From: Flagellimonas oceanensis
GTDB taxonomy: Bacteria > Bacteroidota > Bacteroidia > Flavobacteriales > Flavobacteriaceae
Direction of reading: 5' to 3'
Length of the DNA stretch: 64,000 nt
Assembly (NCBI RefSeq): GCF_003992595.1
Contig: NZ_RZNA01000049.1
Location: forward strand, 62,001 to 126,000
Position numbers and translations under genes: made by a program. Below the pieces are notes generated by a model, which saw only the letters and a program-made list of their open reading frames with translations, made no database searches and was not told the DNA's origin. Below are positions 49,021 through 58,134 of this stretch, piece after piece. How positions within the stretch are numbered: position 1 is the first letter of the stretch; each line of letters opens with the position of its first letter.

Positions 49021-50928
49021 TTAAAGGCTTTCCTTCATAATGTTTTCCACTACTTCGGGGTTCAACAAGGTTGAAGTGTCCCCTAAGTTACTGGTATCCT
49101 TGGATGCGATTTTTCTAAGGATTCTCCTCATAATCTTACCACTTCGAGTTTTTGGCAGACCTTCCGTAAACTGAATTTTATCCAGCTTCGCGATGGGTCC
49201 AATATGCTCTGTGATCAATTGGTTGATTTCCTTTTTAAGATTGTCACGGTTACGGGTTTCCCCTGTTTCCTTCAAAATAATATAACCATACAAGGCATTT
49301 CCCTTGATATCGTGCGGGAATCCGACAATAGCGGATTCGGCCACAGCTGGATGCTCGTTAATGGCATCCTCAATCGGTGCCGTACCCAAATTATGGCCGG
49401 AAACAATGATCACGTCATCTACCCTACCTGTAATTCGGTAGTACCCCACCTCATCGCGGAGTGCTCCATCACCGGTAAAATATTTACCTTCAAAAGCCGA
49501 GAAATAGGTATCCTTGTAGCGCTGATGATTGCCCCAAATAGTTCTGGCAATTGATGGCCATGGATATTTGATGCACAATCGACCGTCCACTTGGTTGCCT
49601 TTGATTTCCTCGCCATTTTCATCCATAAGTGCAGGCTGGATACCCGGCATGGGCAAAGTGGCATAAGTTGGTTTTGTTGGTGTGGAAAATGGAATCGGGG
49701 AAATCAAGATTCCGCCGGTTTCCGTTTGCCACCACGTATCCACAATAGGGCATTTTTTCTCCCCTACGTGGTCGTTATACCAGTGCCATGCCTCCTCATT
49801 TATAGGTTCTCCCACAGTACCCAACACTTTTAAGCTGGACAGGTCATATTCCGTTACAAAATCCAAGTTTTCCTTAGCCAATGCCCTAATTGCTGTTGGT
49901 GCTGTGTAAAACTGGGTTACTTTGTGTTTCTGTACCACATCCCAGAACCTACCAAAATCGGGGTAAGAAGGTACCCCTTCGAACATTACGGTTGTAGCAC
50001 CGTTGGCCAGCGGTCCATACACTATGTAAGAGTGGCCCGTAATCCAACCGATGTCCGCAGTACACCAATACACATCTTCTTCACGGTACTGGAACACATT
50101 TTTAAAAGTATATGCCGTATACACCATGTACCCACCGGTTGTATGGACCATACCTTTTGGACGGCCCGTGGAACCAGAGGTGTACAAAATAAACAAAGGG
50201 TCTTCGGCATCCATGATTTCCGGAACACAATCGGAATAGGCTTTATCCAAAAGTGGTTGAATCCATACATCACGACCTTCTTTCATGGTTACATCGCCAC
50301 CTGTTCGTTTGGTCACCAATACGGTTTCCACATCCGGGCAACTTTCCAAACCTTCATCTACAATGGCCTTTAAATCGATAACTTTTTTACCTCGATAAGA
50401 CCCATCGGATGTCAGTACCATTTTTGCACCACAATCATTGATTCTGGTTGCCAATGCTGTTGACGAAAATCCAGCAAAAACAACGGAGTGAATGGCTCCG
50501 ATACGGGCACAGGCCAGTAAAGCCACCGCCAAATCTGGAATCATGGGAAGGTAAATTACCACCCTATCACCTTTTTGAACTCCTTTATCCTTCAATACAT
50601 TCGCATATTTGCACACACGCTCATGAAGTTGGCGGTATGTAATATGCTCTGCTTCCTCCTTGGGGTCGTTGGGTTCAAAAAGAATAGCGGTTTTATCGCC
50701 ACGAATGCGAAGATGACGATCGATACAGTTTTCGGTAATGTTCAACTTGGCCCCCTTAAACCAGCTTATCTCTGGTTTTGTGAAATCCCATTCCAAAACG
50801 GAATCCCATTTTTTACGCCAATGGAAGTGCTCTTCGGCCACTTCTTCCCAAAATCCTTCGGGGTTTCTAACGGATTTTCGATACACCTGAAAATACTCCT
50901 CCAAGTGCTTGATATGATAATTACTCAT
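49021..50928 (-). CDS. acs: acetate--CoA ligase
   Basis: LYTSGSTGRPKGMVHTTGGY; DIGWITGHSYIVYGPL; GLPKTRSGKIMRRILRKIA. Confidence 0.97.
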   Translation of the reverse strand: MSNYHIKHLEEYFQVYRKSVRNPEGFWEEVAEEHFHWRKKWDSVLEWDFTKPEISWFKGAKLNITENCIDRHLRIRGDKTAILFEPNDPKEEAEHITYRQLHERVCKYANVLKDKGVQKGDRVVIYLPMIPDLAVALLACARIGAIHSVVFAGFSSTALATRINDCGAKMVLTSDGSYRGKKVIDLKAIVDEGLESCPDVETVLVTKRTGGDVTMKEGRDVWIQPLLDKAYSDCVPEIMDAEDPLFILYTSGSTGRPKGMVHTTGGYMVYTAYTFKNVFQYREEDVYWCTADIGWITGHSYIVYGPLANGATTVMFEGVPSYPDFGRFWDVVQKHKVTQFYTAPTAIRALAKENLDFVTEYDLSSLKVLGTVGEPINEEAWHWYNDHVGEKKCPIVDTWWQTETGGILISPIPFSTPTKPTYATLPMPGIQPALMDENGEEIKGNQVDGRLCIKYPWPSIARTIWGNHQRYKDTYFSAFEGKYFTGDGALRDEVGYYRITGRVDDVIIVSGHNLGTAPIEDAINEHPAVAESAIVGFPHDIKGNALYGYIILKETGETRNRDNLKKEINQLITEHIGPIAKLDKIQFTEGLPKTRSGKIMRRILRKIASKDTSNLGDTSTLLNPEVVENIMKESL

Positions 50929-50988: not shown

Positions 50989-51357
50989 TTAACCCAATAA
51001 ATCTTCAATATCGGAGATGACCTTTTTTATGGAGAACGGTTTGGTCATGTAACTGTCTGCTCCCATTTTCAATCCTTTTTCCACATCTTTCTCCTTGCTC
51101 TTTGCGGATAAAAACACCACTTTGGTATGGGAAAGGTCTATATTGTCCCTAACACGCTTTAAGGTTTCGTACCCATCCATTTCAGGCATCATGATATCCA
51201 AAAGTATAAGGTCAGGTTTCTCCCTGTTCGATATGTCCAATGCCTCGGTACCATCTCGGGCGATGAACACTTCAAAGTCTTTCTTTTTAAAGGCATATTC
51301 CAACGACATTACGATGTTGGGTTCATCATCCACTATCAGTATTTTTTTCTGCATCAT
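50989..51357 (-). CDS. receiver-only response regulator
   Basis: KKILIVDDEPNIVMSLEY...PDLILLDIMMPEMDGYE...KPFSIKKV, 122 aa, no output domain. Confidence 0.93.
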   Translation of the reverse strand: MMQKKILIVDDEPNIVMSLEYAFKKKDFEVFIARDGTEALDISNREKPDLILLDIMMPEMDGYETLKRVRDNIDLSHTKVVFLSAKSKEKDVEKGLKMGADSYMTKPFSIKKVISDIEDLLG

Positions 51358-54041
51358 TGTTCTTTGGGTATTGAAAACATCATACGTGTACCTTTCTTAA
51401 ATTTTTTATCCACCGCAATGGAACCTTTATGACTTTCCACTATTTTTTTGCAAATGGCAAGACCAAGGCCACTACCCTGCGGTTTCTTTACATTTTGATT
51501 TTTTGATTGATAGAATTTGTCAAAGATGTAATCCTTGTCCTCTTCGGGTATTCCCCTGCCATTATCTTTAATGGTAACCAAAACCTCCTTATTAAGGTCT
51601 TCCAACAGAATTTTGATTCTTCCGTTATGGGGTTCTGTAAATTTAAGGGAATTCGAGAGCAAATTCGTCAATACTTGCAAAATTCGGTCCTCATCATAGG
51701 CTGCAAACACCTTTTCTTTGTGAGAAAACTTAATTTTTATCTCTTTTTTGGATGCAATTTGCTCCACTCCTTTTATGGCCTTCTGAATGGTTATTGACAT
51801 ATTATGTTCGTCAATGTCCAGTTCCGATCTATTCCCCGATAATTTTTCAAGGTCCAAAATGTTATGAATCAAGGTGTCCAAACGATCACTGTCCCTATTG
51901 ATATTTTCCAGGAATCTGTTTCTGAGTTCGGGTGGCATTCCCTCATCTTCCAAAACTTCCGAAGCTGCTTTTATGGAGGTAATTGGTGTCTTGAGCTCGT
52001 GTGCCACGGTATCCAAAAACTCGTCCTTGAGCTTATCCTGAATGCGAAGCTCCTTGTTGGCTGCTTTTAATTGCTGGGCCATAGCAGCAAGCTCTTCGGA
52101 CTTTTCCCTAAGTAATTTGTTGCTTGCTTTGGTTTCCTTGCTCTCTTCCAAAATATTGAGTACCTCCACTAAACTTATGGGTGTTTCCTTCGAAACCGAG
52201 GCCAATAATATTTTTGCCGAAGCACTTCCGATACTCCCCGTTAAAAGCTTCTCTGAAAAATTGATCAATCTAGCATCTGCTCGTTCTTCGGTTTCGGATA
52301 TATTATATTTTTTATTGAAAAATTGTAAGGCCCTATTGGTCCGTTGCTCTCCCAAAAAACGATTTAATAATCGTTTAATATCAGCTACATAAGCTTCTCC
52401 TTTCCAGATAAATCCTCCCTCCTGAAGATTACCATAGTTTTCGTGATTAACGAACATCTCGGCATAATTACGTTCCCTATAATTACCTTTGGTATGAAGG
52501 GAAAACCCAACGAACGTCAGGGTATTAAAGGACATGCTCCATAAAAAGGCATTACTTTCCGGCGTTAAATAATCCAACCCAAACAAATGTGCCGGCTGCA
52601 ACCAGGCCTGACCAAAGAGTCCTTCTTCCATAGATTCCACACCGGGCATGGTGGCTTGACTAATTATTGGCAAAAACAAGGTGTAAAACACAACAGCTAA
52701 ACCTACTAGAATACCAATTTCTGCTCCTTTTGCTGTTCCCCTTCGCCAGGTCAACCCCAAAAAGAACGATGGTGCCAACTGAGCAATGATCACAAAAGAG
52801 ATCAATCCGATGGAATACAAAGAAAGTTGAGCGGAAAACCGAATGTAGAAGAAATAGGCAATGATGATCAAAAGAAAAATAGCAACTCTCCTAATGTTTT
52901 TGATACGCTTATTGTTTTCTTCGGGATTGCCTTCCACCAATGTTTTAATGAATCCGTAGGGAATCACAATGTTGTTACTTACCATGGTTGACAATGCAAG
53001 GGTAGAGACCACAATCATTGAAATGACAGTGGTAAATCCACCGATAAAAACCAAAAGTGCCAATCCGTAATTGTTCTCCTGTAAAGGCAATAAAAGGGAA
53101 TAATAATCATGATTTACCGTAGCTGGGAGACTAATATTCCCAGCCCAGGCTATAAAAATCACGAAAACATTGAATAACAGCAAGTACAACGGGAACAACC
53201 AAATGGCTTTGCGCAAATAGCTTTCGTTATCGTTCTCCACTACGGCCACATGAAATTGTCTGGGCAGCAAAAAAATGGCGAAAATGGAAAGACAGATGGT
53301 AAACAGCCAGTTGAAACCATTCTCTAAACCACCAAAAGTGGTCAGTTGCTCAAAGTTTTCCTGTAGGCTTGCCTGAGTGTAGAGGTCTGTGGTTCCATCA
53401 AACAAATAAAAGGTAATGTAAATTCCAATGGCCAAGAAGAAGCCCAGTTTTAAAATGGACTCCAAAGCAATGGTCGCCACGATGCCTTTTCGGTGTTCCG
53501 AAGTATCGGTGGACAAGGTTCCATAAAAGGCAACAAAAACCGCTATAAGCAACGCAATGTAGAAGGTGGAATCATCGAAAAAGCCCGTGGATTCATAACC
53601 TCCTTTTGCCGAGATCAATGAAAATGTCTCGGATACTGCTTTTAATTGCAAGGAGATATATGGAATTATGGCAAATAAACAGGTTAGCGTTACCAAAGCT
53701 CCCAACTGGCGATTATTACCATATCTCATGGAAATAAAATCGGCAACACTGGAAATTTTGTGCTGTTTGGAGATACGAATTACCTTTCTCATGAGTACAA
53801 CCCAAAGAGGCAGGGCAATTACAGGCCCAAGATAAACGGCCATAAAACTAATACCCGAACTGGATGCTATTCCCACACTCCCGTAGTAGGTCCATGCGGT
53901 ACAGTATACCGCCAGTGAAAGTGTGTAGACATAAGGATTGTTCGTCCATTTGCTCCTTTTGTTCTTTTCGGCAAAGTAGGCCAGTACAAAAAGCATGGCC
54001 AAATACAACACAATTACCAATCCTACAATATAATTACTCAT
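51354..54041 (-). CDS. SSS-fused (CbrA/CrbS-like) sensor histidine kinase
   Basis: N-terminal multi-TM SSS domain; C-terminal FLDTVAHELKTPITSI and HATPase GSGLGLAICKKIVE. Confidence 0.93.
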   Translation of the reverse strand: MSNYIVGLVIVLYLAMLFVLAYFAEKNKRSKWTNNPYVYTLSLAVYCTAWTYYGSVGIASSSGISFMAVYLGPVIALPLWVVLMRKVIRISKQHKISSVADFISMRYGNNRQLGALVTLTCLFAIIPYISLQLKAVSETFSLISAKGGYESTGFFDDSTFYIALLIAVFVAFYGTLSTDTSEHRKGIVATIALESILKLGFFLAIGIYITFYLFDGTTDLYTQASLQENFEQLTTFGGLENGFNWLFTICLSIFAIFLLPRQFHVAVVENDNESYLRKAIWLFPLYLLLFNVFVIFIAWAGNISLPATVNHDYYSLLLPLQENNYGLALLVFIGGFTTVISMIVVSTLALSTMVSNNIVIPYGFIKTLVEGNPEENNKRIKNIRRVAIFLLIIIAYFFYIRFSAQLSLYSIGLISFVIIAQLAPSFFLGLTWRRGTAKGAEIGILVGLAVVFYTLFLPIISQATMPGVESMEEGLFGQAWLQPAHLFGLDYLTPESNAFLWSMSFNTLTFVGFSLHTKGNYRERNYAEMFVNHENYGNLQEGGFIWKGEAYVADIKRLLNRFLGEQRTNRALQFFNKKYNISETEERADARLINFSEKLLTGSIGSASAKILLASVSKETPISLVEVLNILEESKETKASNKLLREKSEELAAMAQQLKAANKELRIQDKLKDEFLDTVAHELKTPITSIKAASEVLEDEGMPPELRNRFLENINRDSDRLDTLIHNILDLEKLSGNRSELDIDEHNMSITIQKAIKGVEQIASKKEIKIKFSHKEKVFAAYDEDRILQVLTNLLSNSLKFTEPHNGRIKILLEDLNKEVLVTIKDNGRGIPEEDKDYIFDKFYQSKNQNVKKPQGSGLGLAICKKIVESHKGSIAVDKKFKKGTRMMFSIPKEQ

Positions 54042-54228
54042 AGAACCGCTTTAAAATAATATAGGCCAAGACAATGGAAACCAACCAGCTAAGAAATATG
54101 AATACATAGAACATGGGAAAGCCAAAAATTTCAGCTTCTCCATCAAAAATGGTAACAAATGGCACATTCCATAAAAAAAACAGTACTATGGAAATAAGTA
54201 TCAATTTCTGCTGATGCCTTTTCTTCAT
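54034..54228 (-). CDS. 64 aa small membrane protein coupled to the SSS-kinase
   Basis: Start at MKKRHQQKLILISIVLFFLW; two TM segments; overlaps kinase start. Confidence 0.75.
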   Translation of the reverse strand: MKKRHQQKLILISIVLFFLWNVPFVTIFDGEAEIFGFPMFYVFIFLSWLVSIVLAYIILKRFYE

Positions 54229-54312
54229 TTTTATTTGCACGGTCGCTAAACTTAAAATTACAAAAAACGGTGCGGTAAATCCATACCACACCGCTTTTTC
54301 ACAACCAACTAA

Positions 54313-56028
54313 TTAATGAGACGATGCTTCACCCGCACCGCTGGGTATTCTGATATGCTCCACAATTTCCTGAACTTCTTCTGGAGGTTCTGGGGTAAAC
54401 CTATTTACTACGATGGCCACAATAAAGTTGACGATCATGGCAATGGTTCCAAACCCTTCGGGCGATATGCCAAACCACCAGCTTTCCTGAAGACCGGCCA
54501 CTGCTTCTTTGCCTCCGTCAAATATTCCAAATTTGAATTTCAGCATGTAGAAAAGCATCAAACAAAGCCCTACGATCATTCCAGAAATGGCTCCCTTGCT
54601 GTTCATTTTTTTATAGAAAATACCCAAGATGATAGCAGGGAAAAACGATGCAGCTGCAAGACCAAAGGCCAAGGCCACAACCGCTGCCACAAAGCCCGGC
54701 GGGTTGATTCCAAAATAACCGGCAATAACAACAGCTATCGCAGCTGAAAGTCTAGCTGCCCAAAGCTCTGCCTTTTCAGAAAGATCTGGTTTAAGTACGT
54801 TTTTAATCAAATCGTGGGAAACCGAAGATGAAATCACCAATAATAAGCCTGCTGCAGTAGATAGCGCTGCTGCCAGTCCACCTGCAGCTATCAAACCGAT
54901 TACCCAGGCCGGAAGGTCGGCAATTTCCGGGTTGGCCAATACCATAATATCACGATCTACCGTAAGCTCATTTACCTCGGGCGATGCCACATATTGGATT
55001 TTACCATCACCATTTTTGTCATCATGGGCAATCAGCCCCGTGGTTTCCCAGCGACTGAACCATTCTGGCATGTTATCGTATTCCTTACCACTTACGGTTT
55101 CAATCAGGTTGGTTCTGGCAAATACGGCCACAGCTGGTGCAGTGGTGTAAAGAATTGCTATGAACAATAATGCCAATCCAGCAGATTTTCTAGCATCACG
55201 TACCCGTTTTACCGTAAAAAACCGAACTATGACGTGGGGCAATCCAGCCGTACCCACCATCAAGGCAAGGGTAATGGCAAAAACATCGATGGTGCTCTTT
55301 GAACCATCTGTATATTCCGCAAAGCCAAGTTCGGTAGAGAGACCATCCAATTTATCCAAAAGATAAGTTCCAGAACCATCAGATAGGGTACTACCAAAAC
55401 CTAGTTGGGGTACTGGGTTTCCTGTCATCTGAATGGAAATGAATATGGCCGGTACCATAAAGGCGAATATCAACACGCAATATTGAGCCACCTGCGTATA
55501 AGTGATACCCTTCATTCCACCGAGTACGGCATAGAACAACACAATTACCATTCCGATTACTACTCCCGTATTGATATCCACTTCGAGATATCTGGAAAAG
55601 ACAATCCCTACCCCGCGCATTTGTCCCGCTACATAAGTAAAGGAAACTATCAATGCACAGATGACAGCCACGACACGTGCGGTCTTCGAGTAATAGCGTT
55701 CTCCAATAAAATCAGGAACGGTAAACTTTCCAAACTTTCTGAGATAAGGTGCCAATAGCAAAGCCAAAAGCACGTAGCCTCCCGTCCATCCCATTAAGTA
55801 AACAGCTCCATCGTATCCGGCAAAAGAGATTATCCCTGCCATGGAGATAAAAGAAGCTGCCGACATCCAATCAGCCGCAGTGGCCATTCCGTTGGCCAAT
55901 GGGGAAACTCCTCCTCCGGCCACATAAAACTCCTTGGTGGAGCCTGCTCGCGACCAAATCGCAATTCCTATATATAGTCCAAATGACAGCGCGACAAGAA
56001 CATAGGTCCATATTTGTACATCATTCAT
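54313..56028 (-). CDS. sodium/solute (acetate-type) symporter, DUF4212-associated
   Basis: SSS pattern; EFYVAGGGVSPLANGMATAADWMSAASFISMAGII. Confidence 0.94.
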   Translation of the reverse strand: MNDVQIWTYVLVALSFGLYIGIAIWSRAGSTKEFYVAGGGVSPLANGMATAADWMSAASFISMAGIISFAGYDGAVYLMGWTGGYVLLALLLAPYLRKFGKFTVPDFIGERYYSKTARVVAVICALIVSFTYVAGQMRGVGIVFSRYLEVDINTGVVIGMVIVLFYAVLGGMKGITYTQVAQYCVLIFAFMVPAIFISIQMTGNPVPQLGFGSTLSDGSGTYLLDKLDGLSTELGFAEYTDGSKSTIDVFAITLALMVGTAGLPHVIVRFFTVKRVRDARKSAGLALLFIAILYTTAPAVAVFARTNLIETVSGKEYDNMPEWFSRWETTGLIAHDDKNGDGKIQYVASPEVNELTVDRDIMVLANPEIADLPAWVIGLIAAGGLAAALSTAAGLLLVISSSVSHDLIKNVLKPDLSEKAELWAARLSAAIAVVIAGYFGINPPGFVAAVVALAFGLAAASFFPAIILGIFYKKMNSKGAISGMIVGLCLMLFYMLKFKFGIFDGGKEAVAGLQESWWFGISPEGFGTIAMIVNFIVAIVVNRFTPEPPEEVQEIVEHIRIPSGAGEASSH

Positions 56029-56050: not shown

Positions 56051-56314
56051 TTAATCTTCGTTGTATCCGTATTTCTTGTCCAATTTGTTCATTAGGCGTA
56101 CGTACACGAAAATGAGGATGACAAATACATAGATAGACCCCTGTTGTGCGAACCAAAACCCTAGTTTAAATCCACCCAGTCTAATGTTGTTCAAAGCATC
56201 TTTGAAGAGAATGCCCGCTCCGTAGGAGACCAAGAACCAGATGACCAGTAAAATGACCAAATACCTCAGGTTCTCTTTCCAATAGGCCGAAGCCTTTTTC
56301 TGTTTTTCTGACAT
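56051..56314 (-). CDS. DUF4212 small symporter subunit
   Basis: AYWKENLRYLVILLVIWFLVSYGAGILF...FKLGFWFAQQGSIYVFVILIFVY. Confidence 0.92.
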   Translation of the reverse strand: MSEKQKKASAYWKENLRYLVILLVIWFLVSYGAGILFKDALNNIRLGGFKLGFWFAQQGSIYVFVILIFVYVRLMNKLDKKYGYNED

Positions 56315-56332: not shown

Positions 56333-57559
56333 TTATAAATAAATCTGTGCTTGCAATGTTACCACGCTGTTGCTGTCGCCAGCACCGACTTTGGAATTGG
56401 CATATTCCAATGTTAACTTGGAATGATGGCCCGTCATAAACAGGTTGATTCCCAATCCCAATCTTGTGGCGTTGTCATCAATTGCATCTATGGTTCGTGT
56501 TTGATAGGATAAATAAGGCTGTACCCTTGAATTATCCGCTGGGGCAGGAATCAAGTATCCCACATGCCCATATACCATATTTCCGGTACCATATGGTCCC
56601 AGGTTGAAGTTACGACCATAATCGTTATTTTGAAACACGGCATAGGCAGTTATTGCGGAACCATCCTCACCAAGAGGTGCATCGTAAAAGGCGTCCACAG
56701 CCAAAATGTTGACATTTTCACCTTCTAGATTACCAGTTCCGTCCATCACCACAACACCGTTTGGATGTGTTAGAAAACCTGCTCCGACATTGAATACTTT
56801 TTTGCTGCCCAGATAGGTCCCTACCTTGTAAGGAAGAAAGTTGGATTCTTCATCCAAGAACTGATAATCGAAATAACCTTGAATTACTTTACCTGCATCG
56901 GCAGAACCCAATAATTCCCTTCCTCGATACACGGCTCTGCCGTTTGGTGTAGGATCATTGGTGGCATCCAAGGTATTTGTAATAGCCTCATTGAAAGATA
57001 CCCGGTATTGCAAACGACCTACCCTACCCTTTACATACACACCCAAATGACGGGCAAATTGGTCGCTAAGTCCCAATACTGCCCAAGACTGGCGGTTGTT
57101 GTCCAAGGTCATAAAATTAAGGGTACTACTATTGTTCAGTCTGGAAATGCCATTCCAGTAGTGCAGTCCAGTCCCCGCATAAAAATCCTTTGCAACACGC
57201 CATTCCCCCCAAAAGGAGTGGTAAAAAAGTTGTGAAGACTCCCCTTTTCCCGTTGCACTAAGATTATTTCCGTTCAAACTGTTTAATCCAAAATGTGACA
57301 ACAGCAGGAACCTTTTGTTCAATTGGGTAAAGCTCAACAATCTTGCTCTTCGGACGCTAAAGTTTGTGGTGCTGACATCCTCAGGAACATTATCGTTGTA
57401 TTGGGCCCAAAACTGACCCCATGCGATCATACGAAGATATTTGGAACCATCTTCGTTGAAATTGATTTTGAAACCTCCCGTGTATTCGGTGTTTCCCTGT
57501 GAAAATGATTTTGGAACGAACAACAGAAAAAATACCATTCCAATTAGGATTCTTTTCAT
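56333..57559 (-). CDS. outer-membrane porin-like protein
   Basis: Signal peptide, beta-barrel alternation, C-terminal aromatic-like end (VVTLQAQIYL). Confidence 0.8.
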   Translation of the reverse strand: MKRILIGMVFFLLFVPKSFSQGNTEYTGGFKINFNEDGSKYLRMIAWGQFWAQYNDNVPEDVSTTNFSVRRARLLSFTQLNKRFLLLSHFGLNSLNGNNLSATGKGESSQLFYHSFWGEWRVAKDFYAGTGLHYWNGISRLNNSSTLNFMTLDNNRQSWAVLGLSDQFARHLGVYVKGRVGRLQYRVSFNEAITNTLDATNDPTPNGRAVYRGRELLGSADAGKVIQGYFDYQFLDEESNFLPYKVGTYLGSKKVFNVGAGFLTHPNGVVVMDGTGNLEGENVNILAVDAFYDAPLGEDGSAITAYAVFQNNDYGRNFNLGPYGTGNMVYGHVGYLIPAPADNSRVQPYLSYQTRTIDAIDDNATRLGLGINLFMTGHHSKLTLEYANSKVGAGDSNSVVTLQAQIYL

Positions 57560-57630: not shown

Positions 57631-57654
57631 ATATATATATGCTAAATAATTATA
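57631..57654. repeat. left arm of imperfect inverted repeat flanking the InsA-like ORF
   Basis: ATATATATATGCTAAATAATTATA; 21/24 to reverse complement of 58076-58099. Confidence 0.5.
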
Positions 57655-57655
57655 C

Positions 57656-58069
57656 TCAATCCTTAAAACGGTCCCATTTTATCAGCATAAATTTATCACC
57701 CAACTCGGTTACCAACTGTCCTGCCCCTTTTAGGTTTTCAGGGTTTTGAAAGTATTTTTGAAGCTCCGTATGGTTCAGGATCTTGTAAGTGGGATGGTAC
57801 TTTGAATTGTAAGGCCGTTTGATGTTATATTTTCGGACCCAATTCATTACGGAAACATGGGAAACACCCAAAATACGCTCGATTTCACGATAGGTCAATC
57901 CCTCCAAATACAACTGTAGCGCCTTGTTCACGAAGTAATCGTCAATCTGTTTACCTAGTTTGGGCACCGTAAAATAGTAACCACAGGACTTGCATTTATA
58001 GCGTTGCCGCTCTTTTATAATTCCGGCTTTGGTAAACTCTGTGGATGAGCAATTTGGGCAACTTTCCAT
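57656..58069 (-). CDS. zinc-ribbon/HTH protein resembling IS1 InsA, putative transcriptional regulator
   Basis: CPNCSSTEFTKAGIIKERQRYKCKSCGYYF zinc ribbon plus GLTYREIERILGVSHVSVMNWVRKY HTH and a C-terminal extension. Confidence 0.85.
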   Translation of the reverse strand: MESCPNCSSTEFTKAGIIKERQRYKCKSCGYYFTVPKLGKQIDDYFVNKALQLYLEGLTYREIERILGVSHVSVMNWVRKYNIKRPYNSKYHPTYKILNHTELQKYFQNPENLKGAGQLVTELGDKFMLIKWDRFKD

Positions 58070-58071
58070 AC

Positions 58072-58102
58072 TTGATATACTTAATTAGCATAAATATATC
58101 AA
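58072..58102. promoter_or_regulatory. operator-like perfect inverted repeat upstream of InsA-like gene
   Basis: TTGATATA-N15-TATATCAA ending 2 bp before the start codon; contains the right arm 58076-58099. Confidence 0.5.
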
Positions 58103-58134
58103 TTTAGCTTTAAATATTTATCATTCTTATAGCA

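Follow-up and report, generated by a model that had tools for sequence, protein, structure and literature searches.

How did a gene for an InsA-like protein, tightly bracketed by inverted repeats, come to stand beside a set of metabolic genes in Flagellimonas oceanensis, and what could it do there? The gene (57656–58069, minus strand) lies in the window, the 64,000-nucleotide stretch of DNA that was analysed, and encodes 137 residues with a zinc ribbon (C4, C7, C26, C29), a helix-turn-helix (HTH) and a C-terminal domain. The zinc ribbon and HTH, as well as the absence of any InsB-type DDE ORF adjacent to the gene, had been noted in the original prediction and were confirmed. The prediction had also described two 24-bp arms, 57631–57654 and 58076–58099, matching each other in inverted orientation at 21 of 24 positions. 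Arms, ORF coordinates, sequences and match count all proved exact on re-checking, and so did the spacing of 6 bp to the ATG and 1 bp to the stop codon. The minus-strand orientation of the gene places the arm at 58076–58099 upstream and that at 57631–57654 downstream. Taken as a whole, the explanation that we consider highly probable is a domesticated InsA repressor, which lost insB, reuses the ends of its former element as operators and regulates the adjacent operon.

Repeats flanking the regulator gene

The prediction had allowed for chance similarity between the AT-rich arms. When the two intergenic regions were dinucleotide-shuffled 1000 times, no shuffle reached a 21/24 match (mean match 15.7, maximum 20), and the local-alignment score of the arms was equalled in 1 of 1000. 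An alignment across relatives, which the prediction had proposed, revealed repeat arms conserved alongside the ORF, and this cross-locus conservation is, in our reading of the sequences, stronger evidence than the shuffles. Together they rule out a chance repeat.

The upstream site is a 33-bp tandem repeat, nearly invariant across 80 orthologous loci, consisting of two direct half-sites (TGCTAAWTTNNTATA) with a spacing of exactly 19 bp in 97 of 99 loci, including those from other orders. Each predicted arm does contain one half-site, but the second, outer half-site of the upstream operator had been missed: the inner one, TGCTAATTAAGTATA (58076–58090, minus strand), lies within the right arm, while the outer one, AGCTAAATTGATATA (58095–58109, minus strand), is found 19 bp from it. 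The downstream half-site TGCTAAATAATTATA (57640–57654, plus strand), within the left arm, is inverted relative to the upstream ones and therefore IRR-like. Between the regulator stop codon and the porin gene an inverted half-site scores at least 4 in 82% of 99 loci, compared to 5% of shuffles (Mann-Whitney p about 1e-43), with half-site scores in direct orientation at background. This downstream site is a weaker, degenerate copy, and some loci lack it or carry it in direct orientation. One of the latter (L137) has a strong tandem operator ~85–100 bp past the stop codon, direct and not inverted.

The upstream half-sites are separated by the linker TATATTTA (58091–58098, minus strand), which is found in most loci and is a candidate -7 box, with one mismatch to the Bacteroidota consensus TAnnTTTG (PMC6847099); the exact consensus is present in 8 loci. 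Since the tandem pair straddles this candidate box, its occupation would block the regulator’s own promoter. Across the 4.27-Mb genome the exact half-site TGCTAAWTWNNTATA is confined to two places, and both of them flank the regulator gene. Half-sites with one mismatch numbered 20 over the whole genome against 31 in the control, that is, at or below control frequency, and so we claim no additional regulon targets. Of 41 genomes of the genus, 17 carry the gene and 16 of these have the tandem motif, as against none of the 24 without the gene (Fisher p = 1.6e-10), the sole exception (G153) having its regulator gene cut by a contig end. On these sequence grounds the “inverted repeats” are conserved operators, that is, candidate binding sites.

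The regulator gene itself is single-copy. Its product is 100% identical to that of [Muricauda] yonaguniensis, and dN/dS against close orthologs is about 0.003–0.012 where dS is unsaturated, indicating very strong purifying selection. Gene order is shared with other families and orders of Bacteroidia, at a protein identity of about 60–69%. The NF033558 (IS1 family) profile matches residues 4–112 with 74 bits, under its 100-bit cut-off, and no IS1 transposase above that cut-off was found in the F. oceanensis genome. Of the hallmarks of the family, the locus has the InsA-type zinc ribbon and HTH, and the core TGCTAA-N5-TATA in IRL/IRR orientation; it has no InsB/DDE catalytic domain, no terminal GGCA, no target-site duplication, and neither mobility nor multiple copies, being single-copy with fixed synteny. 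An InsA-like gene bracketed by inverted-repeat-like sites could also be a recent or still mobile minimal, MITE-like derivative of IS1, and this we rejected as next to impossible: the single copy, the synteny fixed over several orders, the strong purifying selection and the missing DDE gene and GGCA all speak against it.

Relation to IS1 elements

The nearest true transposases belong to the IS1 family and are encoded on plasmids of Tenacibaculum finnmarkense (CP116298), Methylobacter sp. YRD-M1 and the archaeon Methanomethylovorans (pMETHO01), to which the phylum sample adds a decayed chromosomal copy. The plasmid elements have terminal inverted repeats (TIRs) of the GGCATTGYTAATTWA type, and TIRs of the nearest elements include GGCATTGCTAATTTAATATAG, GGCATTGTTAATTAAGTATAG, GGCATTGTTAATTAAACATCG and GGCATTGTTAATTAGTTATAG. 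The bacterial copies have a TIR core equal or nearly equal to the operator half-site. The Tenacibaculum element, 54% identical to the regulator over residues 4–81, has the TIR GGCATTGCTAATTTAATATAG, which is identical to one operator at 15 of 15 positions. When this element is scanned with a position weight matrix (PWM) of the operators, its left TIR ranks first of 1460 positions with a score of 19.7 (the median of real operators is 19.3) and its right TIR second. The Methylobacter TIRs likewise rank first and second of 1470, while those of Methanomethylovorans score poorly and those of other IS1 subgroups do not match. The orientation of the operators relative to the regulator gene corresponds to the IRL/IRR geometry. 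A tree built from the DNA-binding region places the regulators in a single clade (100/99), which groups with this IS1 subgroup (86/92); several IS rows sit on long branches, and the branching order among IS rows is therefore not settled.

Could the sites instead be conserved promoter elements bound by another protein, with the likeness to IS1 ends coincidental? Their AT-rich composition and a linker resembling the -7 box would fit. Within the genus, however, the motif is confined to genomes that have the gene, and the F. oceanensis genome contains it at no other place; the TIRs that are the top or second PWM matches of their elements belong to the very elements encoding the closest DNA-binding domains; and an inverted copy is kept at the stop codon. 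We regard this reading as very improbable. The prediction had offered relic TIRs or paired operators of a domesticated regulator as alternatives, and the data favour both at once, because the operators agree in sequence and orientation with the TIRs of the nearest IS1 elements and are conserved as cis-sites of a gene that is single-copy, syntenic and non-mobile.

The wide distribution of IS1, together with the unshifted tail described below, suggests that the regulator descends from IS1 rather than the reverse. Elements of this subgroup found in Bacteroidota are few: those recovered with NF033558 in the phylum sample fall mostly into other subgroups, and their TIRs differ or are unrecognisable; an order-wide search returned one decayed copy only, without recognisable TIRs, and InsA as a query had no match among viral contigs. 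In the scenario that we propose, an IS1 element with TIRs GGCATTGYTAATTWAnnATAG would have been captured once in an ancestor of Bacteroidia; insA would have been retained as a host regulator and insB lost, while the left and right terminal repeats would have turned into operators, with the left repeat forming a tandem pair. Bacteroidota appear to have permanently captured a regulator together with its own DNA ends and to use it on site. Two observations do not fit easily: the locus shows neither terminal GGCA nor target-site duplications, and in the genome G065 a divergent regulator (47% identical) is accompanied by no operator and no kinase.

InsA of IS1 binds IRL and IRR via its zinc finger and HTH and represses the IS1 promoter, which partly overlaps IRL (PMC12428005). 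By analogy the regulator would occupy the TGCTAAWTTNNTATA half-sites of its own promoter and probably act as an autorepressor, as InsA does at P(IS1); the joint presence and absence of motif and gene and the TIR match lend indirect support to such binding. With InsA of E. coli IS1 (NF033558) it shares the zinc ribbon and HTH, its nature as an unshifted-frame product, recognition sites that flank the gene as inverted repeats and, probably, autoregulation. In contrast to E. coli IS1, it is single-copy and immobile, has no insB and has lost the terminal GGCA, its upstream site is a tandem pair and a metabolic operon is linked to it. The GGCATTGYTAATTWA-type elements also differ from the locus here, as they carry insB/DDE and have a mobile-element structure of about 740–765 bp.

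TldR is derived from TnpB. It is likewise a mobile-element DNA-binding protein turned host regulator (PMC13418256), but an RNA-guided one, as opposed to an InsA protein with its own terminal repeats as operators. Exapted regulators from mobile elements have been reviewed (PMC8987985). Bacteria seem to offer few documented cases in which a mobile-element protein was exapted along with the element's own ends to form a regulator-operator pair, and no report of an InsA-derived metabolic regulator was found in the literature searched, mostly outside subscription journals. The present case has both nearest IS relatives and gene-negative genomes at hand for comparison, and illustrates that the product of a conserved, non-mobile gene tied to a metabolic operon can look like half of an IS1 transposase.

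The C-terminal tail

The C-terminal extension had been described as unrelated-looking, a view that we have to revise: in the nearest IS1 elements the unshifted InsA frame aligns with it. The alignment with Methanomethylovorans InsA covers 122 residues at 45% identity without a shift in frame, and continues past the A-rich site where the transposase frameshift is expected. Here the IS segment NTAGSGLLLIEL, whose counterpart in the regulator is ENLKGAGQLVTEL, is an out-of-frame reading of InsB YCWIWIAVDR. At fixed register, over 14 residues and five IS copies, some of them decayed, the unshifted IS tails reach a mean score of 17.6 (joint permutation p = 2e-4), whereas the InsB frame scores 1.2, which is negligible, though it exceeds most permutations of that frame (p = 0.005). 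The start of a DDE fold in the InsB frame was therefore rejected as the identity of the tail. Since the unshifted frame scores well and the InsB frame does not, the regulator looks like a near full-length InsA rather than a truncated transposase (137 residues compared to about 144–148 for InsA).

An AlphaFold model of the regulator (mean pLDDT 84) has a beta-alpha-beta-beta tail. A PDB sequence search returned no significant relative (best E = 0.014), and neither did a fold search, in which the best matches were Lrp/AsnC-like proteins (E = 0.02, TM-score 0.26). The strong conservation of the unshifted tail suggests a role beyond DNA binding. The tail is also a candidate for a protein domain that arose from the overlapping, out-of-frame reading of a transposase gene.

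The adjacent operon and its possible control

Downstream of the regulator gene, all on the minus strand, follow a porin (56333–57559), a DUF4212 symporter small subunit (56051–56314), a VC_2705-family sodium/solute symporter (54313–56028), an 85-aa membrane-like protein that matches no family above cut-off (54034–54291), a histidine kinase with an N-terminal SSS domain (CrbS/CbrA-like; 51354–54041), a stand-alone receiver domain of 122 residues without a DNA-binding domain (50989–51357) and acetyl-CoA synthetase (ACS; 49021–50928). This order, usually ending with ACS, is seen across 80 contigs, of which some stop early and two (L069 and L080) have no intervening DUF4212/SSS match; purC and phoH upstream of the regulator are common mainly to close relatives. 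The 85-aa protein consistently occupies the position between symporter and kinase; genomes of the genus without the kinase lack it too. The gene content makes uptake of acetate or a monocarboxylate the probable function of the operon. We propose that the regulator, acting at the downstream site, would control this porin-symporter-kinase-ACS operon, in one direction or the other, and so set acetate or monocarboxylate uptake.

The cluster resembles the CrbS/CrbR (MxtR/ErdR) acetate system in having an SSS-domain kinase beside symporter and acs genes. The kinase here has an SSF domain, whose match only just passes the cut-off, as well as HisKA and HATPase_c, and HATPase_c runs to residue 894 of 895, which leaves no C-terminal receiver; in contrast to CrbS the kinase is thus not a hybrid. 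For the STAC domain, which in the CrbS/CrbR system lies between symporter and kinase, no model is among the Pfam/NCBIfam matches listed. CrbR of gammaproteobacteria is a LuxR-family protein with a DNA-binding domain of its own (PMC5715377), whereas the receiver here has none of the LuxR type, and a separate InsA-like protein is present instead, the sole recognisable DNA-binding protein of the cluster. SSS kinases have been noted in Bacteroidetes by a review (PMC7918813), and a characterisation of such systems in Bacteroidota was not found in the literature searched.

What would the kinase and receiver act on then? A split two-component system is one possibility: the regulator may provide its DNA-binding output, and the phosphorylated receiver would bind the C-terminal domain of the regulator. 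This would extend the domesticated-repressor explanation rather than oppose it, and we hold it to be plausible, at somewhat less than an even chance. It agrees with the lack of a DNA-binding domain in the receiver and with the co-inheritance of the two genes: the kinase is present in 14 of 151 genomes of the family and the regulator in all 14 (Fisher p = 4.6e-16 over the 98 transporter-positive genomes, which contain only one further regulator, a divergent one), and both are lost en bloc within the genus. Co-inheritance may, on the other hand, stem from operon linkage alone. In addition, at a locus from another order (L157, 6128–10488) regulator and tandem operator are followed by an MHS-family metabolite/H+ symporter and ACS, and kinase, receiver, porin and SSS are all missing from the 17 kb read; G065 has its divergent regulator without the kinase. 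The fuller version, a split system with a captured InsA on operators from its own ends, where a tail that was once out-of-frame with a catalytic core became the receiver interface, is on balance doubtful.

The regulator could also be autonomous, an autorepressor and local repressor or activator of the operon that senses a small molecule itself or senses nothing, with kinase and receiver acting elsewhere. InsA of IS1 needs no partner (PMC12428005), and the regulator-operator pair of L157 adjoins transporter and ACS genes without a kinase; that regulator and kinase are strictly co-inherited within the family sample, and that the tail is strongly conserved, argues against autonomy, and we rate it as a serious candidate that falls a little short of even. 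The domesticated-repressor explanation predicts a binding site, a controlled operon and, for SSS-kinase systems, the missing output protein.

Gene-negative genomes offer a view of how the block disappears. DUF4212 is present in 40 of the 41 genomes of the genus. Nearly all gene-negative ones retain transporter genes, and those that were read mostly keep phoH-purC-DUF4212-SSS-ACS, with regulator, porin, 85-aa protein, kinase and receiver missing together (G188, where the contig ends inside the porin, was left out as uninformative). In several of them (L200, L202, L203, L205, L206) a relic outer half-site, CTAAATTGATATATT, stands directly 5' of DUF4212, as expected if a deletion had ended within the operator; it is possibly reused as a promoter. 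The prediction had suggested a search for empty sites and target-site duplications: gene-negative genomes do exist, but they look like products of block loss rather than sites without an insertion, and by eye no target-site duplication was noticed in those of the genus that were read.

In G065, whose genome measures 1.7 Mb, the divergent regulator (L161, 8180–8575; 47% identity) lies ahead of DUF4212-SSS-ACS; no such kinase and no recognisable operator were found there. Separately, a multicopy 102-aa HTH ORF lies near several contig ends of G000 (C39, C41–C44, C48, C50, C53 and others) and is probably a repeated insertion sequence that breaks the assembly.
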